From positions 1-64,000 of the forward strand of contig CAMDCE010000014.1 in the NCBI GenBank assembly GCA_945889625.1: DNA of 64,000 bases. Reading direction: 5' to 3'. The number at the start of each line of letters is the position of its first letter. The stretch's first letter is position 1. Position numbers and translations under genes: made by a program. Shown here one piece after another: positions 5,550-6,693 of this stretch. The notes under the pieces were generated by a model that worked only from the letters and a program-made list of their open reading frames with translations, made no database searches and had not been told where the DNA came from. The stretch comes from Asaia bogorensis. GTDB taxonomy: Bacteria; Pseudomonadota; Alphaproteobacteria; Reyranellales; Reyranellaceae.

Positions 5550-5765
5550 ATGGCGAAAAACACAATCAAGCATGCACTGGTCTGTCGGGAATGCGGTCGC
5601 GCGGGTGAGTTCGTCTATGAGAAGAAGACAAACACCAAGGGGCCTAGGATCAACTACGAGAGTCTGACTCCGGGTTTCAGATTCAAGGACACCGGATACG
5701 CGCCCACCTCGACGATTAGCTGTAGCAAGTGCAACGAGGTCGTGTTTCCTTACTCAACGAGCTAA
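5550..5765 (+). CDS. Small zinc-ribbon-like hypothetical protein
   Basis: 71 residues from the ATG at 5550; an in-frame ATG at 5514 would add 12 residues. Two CxxC knuckles, CREC near the N terminus and CSKC near the C terminus, are spaced as in a rubredoxin-like or zinc-ribbon fold. The middle is polar and has no membrane segment. I do not recognise the family. The stop is 52 bases before the start of the GrdB-like gene on the same strand, so the two may be co-transcribed. The ribosome-binding site is weak, so the start is uncertain. Confidence 0.5.
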   Translation: MAKNTIKHALVCRECGRAGEFVYEKKTNTKGPRINYESLTPGFRFKDTGYAPTSTISCSKCNEVVFPYSTS

Positions 5766-5817: not shown

Positions 5818-6693
5818 ATGGCACAAGGCATAAGTCACCGGAGCTATGTCAGCTACATCGACAAGAGCCGCGAGTACTACGGAGCCTCCGGATACGAACG
5901 GCCATATCGTTGGGCACGCTACGAGCAAGTACCCTTTTCTCGGCTGACCAAACCGCTGTCCCAATCTCGTATCGGGGTGGTTACGACGGCGGACCGGGTT
6001 TCAGGAGCCGCGCCGCGCGCCACGAAGCTGTTCGCCGCGCCGAATAGCGAGAGCGGTCGCCTTTTTACCGAGAAGTCGTGGGACCGCGAAGCGACCCACA
6101 CCAACGACCCGGAAACCTATCTGCCTCTGGCGCGCCTCGCAGAACATGTCGATGCCGGACATGTGGGTTCGCTGAGCCCGAGGTTCTACGGAGTCCCGAC
6201 GGACTACAGCCAGCGGCTGACGCTCGAGCAGGACGCCCCCCAGATCGAAGCATGGATGCGTGAGGATGGCGTCGATATCGCCCTCCTGGTTCCCCTTTGA
6301 CCCGTTTGCCACCAGACCGTGAGTCTGGCCGCACGCCACCTCGAGGCCGCCGGTATTCCGACGGCTATCATCGGGTCCGCCAGGGATATCGTCGAGGAGT
6401 GCGGTGTGCCGCGGTTCCTGTTCGTGGATTTTCCCCTTGGGAATCCCTGTGGAAAGCCGTGGGACGTGGCGATGCAATACAAGATCGTCGGTGGCGCGCT
6501 GGAACTTCTGGAGCATGCCTGGTTACCTCGTACGACCGTGCAGCGGCCGGAGACCTGGGCTCAGGGCGAAGCCGACGAACGATGGCGGGAGCGATTCATG
6601 TGGGTGGGCGATGATAACCGCGCGGCGTTGGCGCAAGCCGGCGAAGCTCGGCGTCGGGCTCAAGCCGCCAAACAGCGGCGGAGCGGCAAGTAG
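5818..6693 (+). CDS. GrdB/PrdB-like reductase family protein, probable selenoprotein (in-frame UGA = Sec161)
   Basis: One reading frame of 291 residues interrupted by a single TGA at 6298-6300. Residues 1-160 (start after GGGGGACC) contain the family's N-terminal part, with GSLSPRFYGVPTDYSQR near 120-135 and VDIALLVPL just before the TGA. The same frame continues as PVCHQTVSLAARHLEAAGIP, then DFPLGNPCGKPWD, to a normal TAG at 6691-6693. From memory, Cys homologues of this glycine/sarcosine/betaine reductase selenoprotein B-related family have a Cys at exactly this point (CPVCHQ), so UGA would give a U-P-V-C redox motif. A hairpin at 6307-6333 fits a bacterial SECIS. The alternative is a nonsense mutation of that Cys codon. 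No sel genes lie in the window. Confidence 0.75.
6307..6333 (+). promoter_or_regulatory. Candidate bacterial SECIS hairpin
   Basis: Just after the in-frame TGA at 6298-6300, CCAGAC (6312-6317) pairs perfectly with GTCTGG (6323-6328) around the loop CGTGA. A 2x2 internal loop below it is followed by TGC/GCA (6307-6309 with 6331-6333). The apical loop starts 17 bases after the TGA and has G as its second base. As I recall the bacterial SECIS model, a stem of 4-16 bp, a loop 16-37 nt from the UGA and a G in the first two loop positions are expected, and all three hold. It lies inside the coding frame, as bacterial SECIS elements do. Confidence 0.6.

Follow-up and report, generated by a model that had tools for sequence, protein, structure and literature searches.

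A single reading frame on the forward strand of the window (the whole stretch of DNA analysed, 64,000 nucleotides) runs from an ATG at 5818 to a TAG at 6691-6693 and comprises 291 residues, with a TGA at 6298-6300, at residue 161, as its only internal stop. A sequence-only reading of the window had described a 291-codon frame broken by this one TGA, and other stops are indeed absent; the flanking sequence that it singled out is likewise in place, with VDIALLVPL 5' of the TGA and PVCHQTVSLAARHLEAAGIP and DFPLGNPCG 3' of it. Its expectation that automatic annotation would truncate the protein at residue 160 and perhaps make the remainder a second gene was also sound, as translation with table 11 yields an ORF of 160 aa and then, in the same frame, one of 124 aa that has a GTG start and covers the second half. 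The features of the locus are as follows.

5818..6693, forward strand: coding sequence for a putative PrdB/GrdB-superfamily selenoprotein of 291 residues with selenocysteine (Sec) at 161, based on the frame, profile matches, homologues and dN/dS
6298..6300, forward strand: in-frame TGA, proposed Sec codon for U161 of the U-P-V-C motif (TGA at every one of 53 loci; the 74 listed homologues of full length all have Cys)
6304..6336, forward strand: bacterial SECIS-like hairpin, with core stem 6312-6317/6323-6328 and apical loop CGUGA 6318-6322, based on comparison and on rules as quoted in PMC13188914
6307..6309, forward strand: codon for Cys164, second half of the UxxC motif, from the translation, homologues and inspected loci
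6319..6693, forward strand: GTG-initiated ORF of 124 aa that gene callers would report; part of the same protein, its second half being continuous with the first

Just upstream of the gene, at 5550-5765 of the window, lies a 71-aa ORF with paired Cys that appears zinc-ribbon-like by eye, and for which a Pfam search at 1e-6 gave no match.

Conservation and selection across the TGA

A protein search returned 3701 matches, the best 120 of which fall into two groups. Forty-six are 160-183 aa long and stop at ...LVPL, immediately ahead of the TGA codon; they include the nearest listed relatives (up to 96% identity) as well as NCBI entries of Enhydrobacter and Reyranella that are named hypothetical protein (160-162 aa). 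The remaining 74 are full length and all have CPVC at the site, in agreement with the CPVCHQ that the sequence-only reading gave for Cys versions of the family. An in-frame UGA therefore stands where homologues have Cys, as in bacterial selenoproteins. Named Cys homologues include a Bradyrhizobium "glycine reductase" and, on Roseomonas and Haematobacter plasmids, proteins annotated as "glycine/sarcosine/betaine reductase selenoprotein B family protein"; these resemble the window's protein in being full length, 43-51% identical and CPVC or CPIC at the site, but carry Cys and not Sec. On a Roseomonas plasmid (L133:5965-8350), the gene next to the Cys version carries the annotation protein adenylyltransferase SelO.

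At the nucleotide level, TGA occupies the identical codon in all 53 loci first inspected (23 from a genome-contig scan and 30 from a family search, with several genes in both sets and L045 being the window's own gene), and PVCHQT follows it directly in every one. Among the contig-scan loci, twelve match at 83-87%, ten of them under Reyranella or Enhydrobacter titles and the other two under Rhizobium and Alphaproteobacteria bacterium; a further Alphaproteobacteria bacterium matches at 67%, and the last ten, at 57-60%, come from Acidimicrobiia-type actinobacteria. Close relatives thus keep the TGA, which is the reverse of the pattern that had been named as fatal to the selenoprotein proposal, namely Cys codons in close relatives and TGA in this strain alone.

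Purifying selection is equally strong on either side of the TGA. Mean dN/dS, from 78 pairwise comparisons among 13 orthologues that include the window's gene, was 0.105 before the codon (75 codons) and 0.097 after it (85 codons), and the frame stays open for 125-143 codons after the TGA in all 13 orthologues and in L033. All 13 orthologues share one nucleotide sequence at codons 5-9 downstream of the TGA, and within codons 3-10 five of seven amino-acid-invariant codons are frozen, compared to 21 of 110 elsewhere (p=0.006). These data bear on whether the TGA could be a genuine stop or an error of sequencing, leaving a pseudogene or two separate genes. The two table 11 ORFs and the public records of relatives, which list the first part as a hypothetical protein of 160-162 aa, are what such a locus would give. 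Nevertheless, a TGA at the same codon in every inspected locus and in many assemblies, with selection equal on both sides of it, speaks against a stop or an error, and two genes are hard to reconcile with the PVCHQT that always follows the TGA, yet lies upstream of the GTG at which the second ORF starts. Given the conserved TGA, the Cys homologues, the dN/dS values and the hairpin described below, we rejected a true stop or pseudogene as extremely improbable.

The hairpin and the selenocysteine machinery

The sequence-only reading also reported a hairpin fitting the bacterial SECIS pattern just after the TGA, and one is present at 6304..6336. Its 6-bp core stem (6312-6317/6323-6328) and 5-nt loop (CGUGA, 6318-6322) lie 17 nt after the TGA, a geometry that agrees with the bacterial SECIS model as quoted in a 2026 review (PMC13188914). 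Folded as a single sequence the element reaches -13.3 kcal/mol, modestly better than shuffles (z -1.61; 13 of 200 shuffles equally good). Since the single-sequence z is just -1.61, we rejected the fold alone as proof of a SECIS element and relied on comparative evidence. In a comparison of 42 distinct sequences, pairing is kept in 95.8% of cells, and sliding the hairpin by 1-3 columns reduces pairing to at most 32%. For one pair, 33 of these sequences have G-C, the other 9 have A-U and none has a mismatch, a clean compensatory change; another shows two double changes but four broken cells, and an outer pair fails to form in 10 of the 42, the window's gene included. Set against 500 shuffles, two pairs with double changes (156 shuffles as high) and four pair types (470 as high) are not unusual; the 11 cells with double changes and the covariation score are higher than in any of the 500, both values being inflated by relatedness.

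The core stem also largely separates Sec from Cys genes. All six pairs form in 58 of 69 distinct Sec loci and five of six in the other 11, whereas among 17 Cys loci three pairs form in seven, four in nine and five in one. The 3' arm is degraded in the Cys homologues, the Roseomonas and Haematobacter genes retain three of six core pairs, and two further Sec loci and two named Cys loci fit the same split. Because six of the Cys loci (L082-L087) are same-genus copies with a degraded hairpin in genomes that carry selA, the hairpin follows the codon and not merely the genome.

The genome encodes selA (547.4 bits), selB (458.6 bits), selD (296.8 bits) and tRNA-Sec (selC; anticodon TCA, 71.4 bits), all over their cut-offs and as anticipated for a bacterial selenoprotein; a search for these four genes had been proposed, with a lack of selB or selC to count against the idea, and both are present. 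The genes for tRNA-Sec, selB and selA are clustered at C4:148356-152519 and selD lies elsewhere in the genome. The cluster adjoins a formate dehydrogenase operon (gene names assigned by reading translations) whose large subunit has an in-frame TGA at L021:6751-6753. The order at L021:6145-16520 of the same contig (G000:C4) is formate dehydrogenase operon, selA, a repeat-type ORF, selB and tRNA-Sec, with selC ~30 nt downstream of selB and not nested within it.

At E<=1e-40 there are 134 matches, found in 74 of 76 genomes of the order and 74 of 75 of the family; 128 contain a TGA and six do not, with the position of the TGA verified for the fetched loci. Two or more matches occur in 51 of the 75 family genomes; copy number in the family runs from one to four, mostly Sec. 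A selA match is found in 69 of the 75 (68 over cut-off) and none in the other six. In the class sample, 30 of 385 genomes match at E<=1e-30, five of them within the family. The 25 outside it divide into 16 with TGA at the site and 9 that are Cys-only, a label based on scoring no more than six candidates in each genome at the E<=1e-30 threshold; two genomes with both Sec and Cys forms (G165 and G169) are counted with the former, and the match in G145 has an in-frame TAG off the site and TGC at it. Of these 25 non-family genomes, selA was found in 14 of the 16 that have the TGA and in none of the 9 Cys-only ones (Fisher p=2.7e-5, relatedness ignored). The two TGA genomes in which selA was not found are 77% and 95% complete; in the latter (L119, G386:C107) the TGA at the site is accompanied by an intact 6-pair hairpin. 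The remark that selenoproteins other than formate dehydrogenase are uncommon in aerobic alphaproteobacteria consequently holds for the class sample (a verified TGA in 16 of 385 genomes, all outside the family) but fails for the family, where 128 of 134 matches contain a TGA.

Because the machinery is present, the TGA is conserved, dN/dS is low and both the hairpin and selA accompany TGA at the site, the TGA at 6298-6300 most likely encodes selenocysteine. Ordinary suppression of UGA, for instance with insertion of Trp, would equally produce a read-through protein conserved after the codon. Its credibility is minimal given that the residue is Cys in each of the 74 listed full-length homologues and that hairpin and selA both go with the TGA; with the conserved TGA and the dN/dS values, we rejected read-through other than by Sec. 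The gene therefore almost certainly encodes one 291-residue selenoprotein, judging by sequence comparison, with UGA 6298 read as Sec by way of SelB and the hairpin. In this mechanism SelB carrying Sec-tRNA-Sec would bind the hairpin just 3' of UGA 6298, and decoding of the codon as selenocysteine would generate the motif U161-P-V-C164.

Relation to PrdB and GrdB

The best NCBIfam profile is TIGR04483, PrdB, the 26-kDa selenoprotein subunit of D-proline reductase, at 79.3 bits (E 2.9e-22, residues 95-233) against a curated cut-off of 300; TIGR01918, the glycine/betaine/sarcosine/D-proline reductase selenoprotein B subfamily, scores 31.1 bits (E 1.2e-7), below its cut-off of 65.45. Compared with the selenoprotein B of glycine, sarcosine and betaine reductases (GrdB/GrdF/GrdH; PF07355, TIGR01917, TIGR01918, NF040794, NF040795), residues 88-233 are weakly homologous to the C-terminal third of profiles of 431-435 positions; scores are 24-31 bits in NCBIfam and under every cut-off, PF07355 included, and the first ~275 profile positions are unmatched. 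The earlier assignment to a GrdB/PrdB-like family is thus right as to the superfamily in the wide sense, significant profile similarity spanning the UxxC region, but must be narrowed, as the selenoprotein is by its profile scores a distant relative of PrdB and GrdB that falls below their curated cut-offs.

PMC13188914 gives UxxC, the motif shared with the window's protein, for the PrdB family. In the literature PrdB counts as a verified selenoprotein with this motif and as one of the five most widespread in bacteria. Other papers describe PrdB as the third most abundant family in the Sargasso Sea, with 42 Sec sequences (PMC1088965), and as frequent in GOS metagenomes, with 235 Sec and 110 Cys sequences (PMC2398784). 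From these accounts, PrdB-type UxxC selenoproteins are a kind already known and abundant in surface-ocean DNA; the marine proteins are described under the same family name and motif as ours. That papers place marine UxxC relatives under PrdB, and that TIGR04483 is the best match, might suggest a genuine D-proline reductase subunit. We regard this as very unlikely, as the score is far under 300 bits, four full-length Cys homologues also reach just 77-108 bits, and PrdA was unmatched in 75 family genomes in a search whose positive control was also silent. Reduction of D-proline by the selenoprotein is unlikely for the same reasons, the distance of its sequence from true PrdB and the empty, uncontrolled PrdA search.

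An AlphaFold2 model (39-row alignment, Cys for Sec; pLDDT 88.6, pTM 0.89) places residue 161 between strand 154-158 and helix 162-177 of an alpha/beta domain, and fold searches gave generic alpha/beta matches only. If PrdB and GrdB are a guide to the chemistry, a small substrate may be attacked at an activated carbon by the selenolate and cleaved reductively (C-N or similar), after which Cys164 would resolve the selenium adduct as a selenenyl sulfide, to be re-reduced by a thiol system such as thioredoxin.

Paralogues, neighbours and Sec/Cys exchange

The same genome contains a second PrdB-like selenoprotein gene (C6:875-1708), 48% identical and of a different clade. It lies on L079 (G000:C6:1-16000), with its TGA at L079:1364-1366, and is followed by a CoA-transferase family III homologue. 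Among 12 fetched loci of this second clade, a type III CoA-transferase homologue occurs in 11 and an oligopeptide-type ABC transporter in 10 (one representative of each identified by Pfam); the CoA-transferase directly follows the gene in all seven maps printed and the transporter is divergent in the maps that show it. In the window's genome the C6 contig ends before the expected transporter position. Six same-genus genomes (L082-L087) have a Cys version of this CoA-transferase-linked paralogue and retain selA.

Many thiol redox proteins have such a motif at a helix start. The UxxC of the window's protein is so placed, and relatives of its clade share neighbours in subsets only, with none common to all, as might be expected if the protein were no reductive lyase but a stand-alone thiol/selenol redox protein that reduces disulfides or peroxides. 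Such a role is possible but doubtful, given that the sequence falls in the PrdB/GrdB superfamily and that the CoA-transferase and peptide-type ABC transporter beside the paralogues suggest a specific small substrate; the CoA-transferase-linked paralogue offers a handle on the substrate.

In a tree of 159 sequences (69 Sec, 90 Cys), 12 changes of state, in whichever direction, are needed and at least nine are forced by well-supported branches; the tree was built by a quick method with a midpoint root. A single genus that carries both the Sec and the Cys form offers a natural experiment on the benefit of Sec. Two further clades group with that of the window's gene, a Sec clade from actinobacteria and a Cys clade in which all named members are actinobacterial, and this grouping may reflect an old transfer between phyla.

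The Reyranella-type alphaproteobacterial family is taken to be aerobic. Aerobic bacteria rarely retain selenoproteins according to the 2026 review (PMC13188914), a statement with which the in-frame-TGA PrdB-like genes in most genomes of this family contrast. Those of the TGA genes that appear in protein databases are cut to half-length, often under the name hypothetical protein. Searches of open-licence papers turned up neither this member nor the family-wide half-length annotation nor the Sec/Cys mosaic; new here are the PrdB-like member itself, its spread through the Reyranella family and the repeated Sec/Cys exchange. We suggest, with more reservation than confidence, that stand-alone PrdB-like selenoproteins could form an unrecognised class of aerobic selenoenzymes that lack a pyruvoyl partner of the PrdA/GrdE type, with substrate-specific paralogues in the Reyranella family, one of them linked to a CoA-transferase and peptide uptake, and with repeated exchange of Sec for Cys. 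Finally, the contigs of L088 (G060:C114) and L116 (G353:C84) each hold, close to the UPVC gene, a second, more distant TGA paralogue with UPLDHQ and no second Cys.
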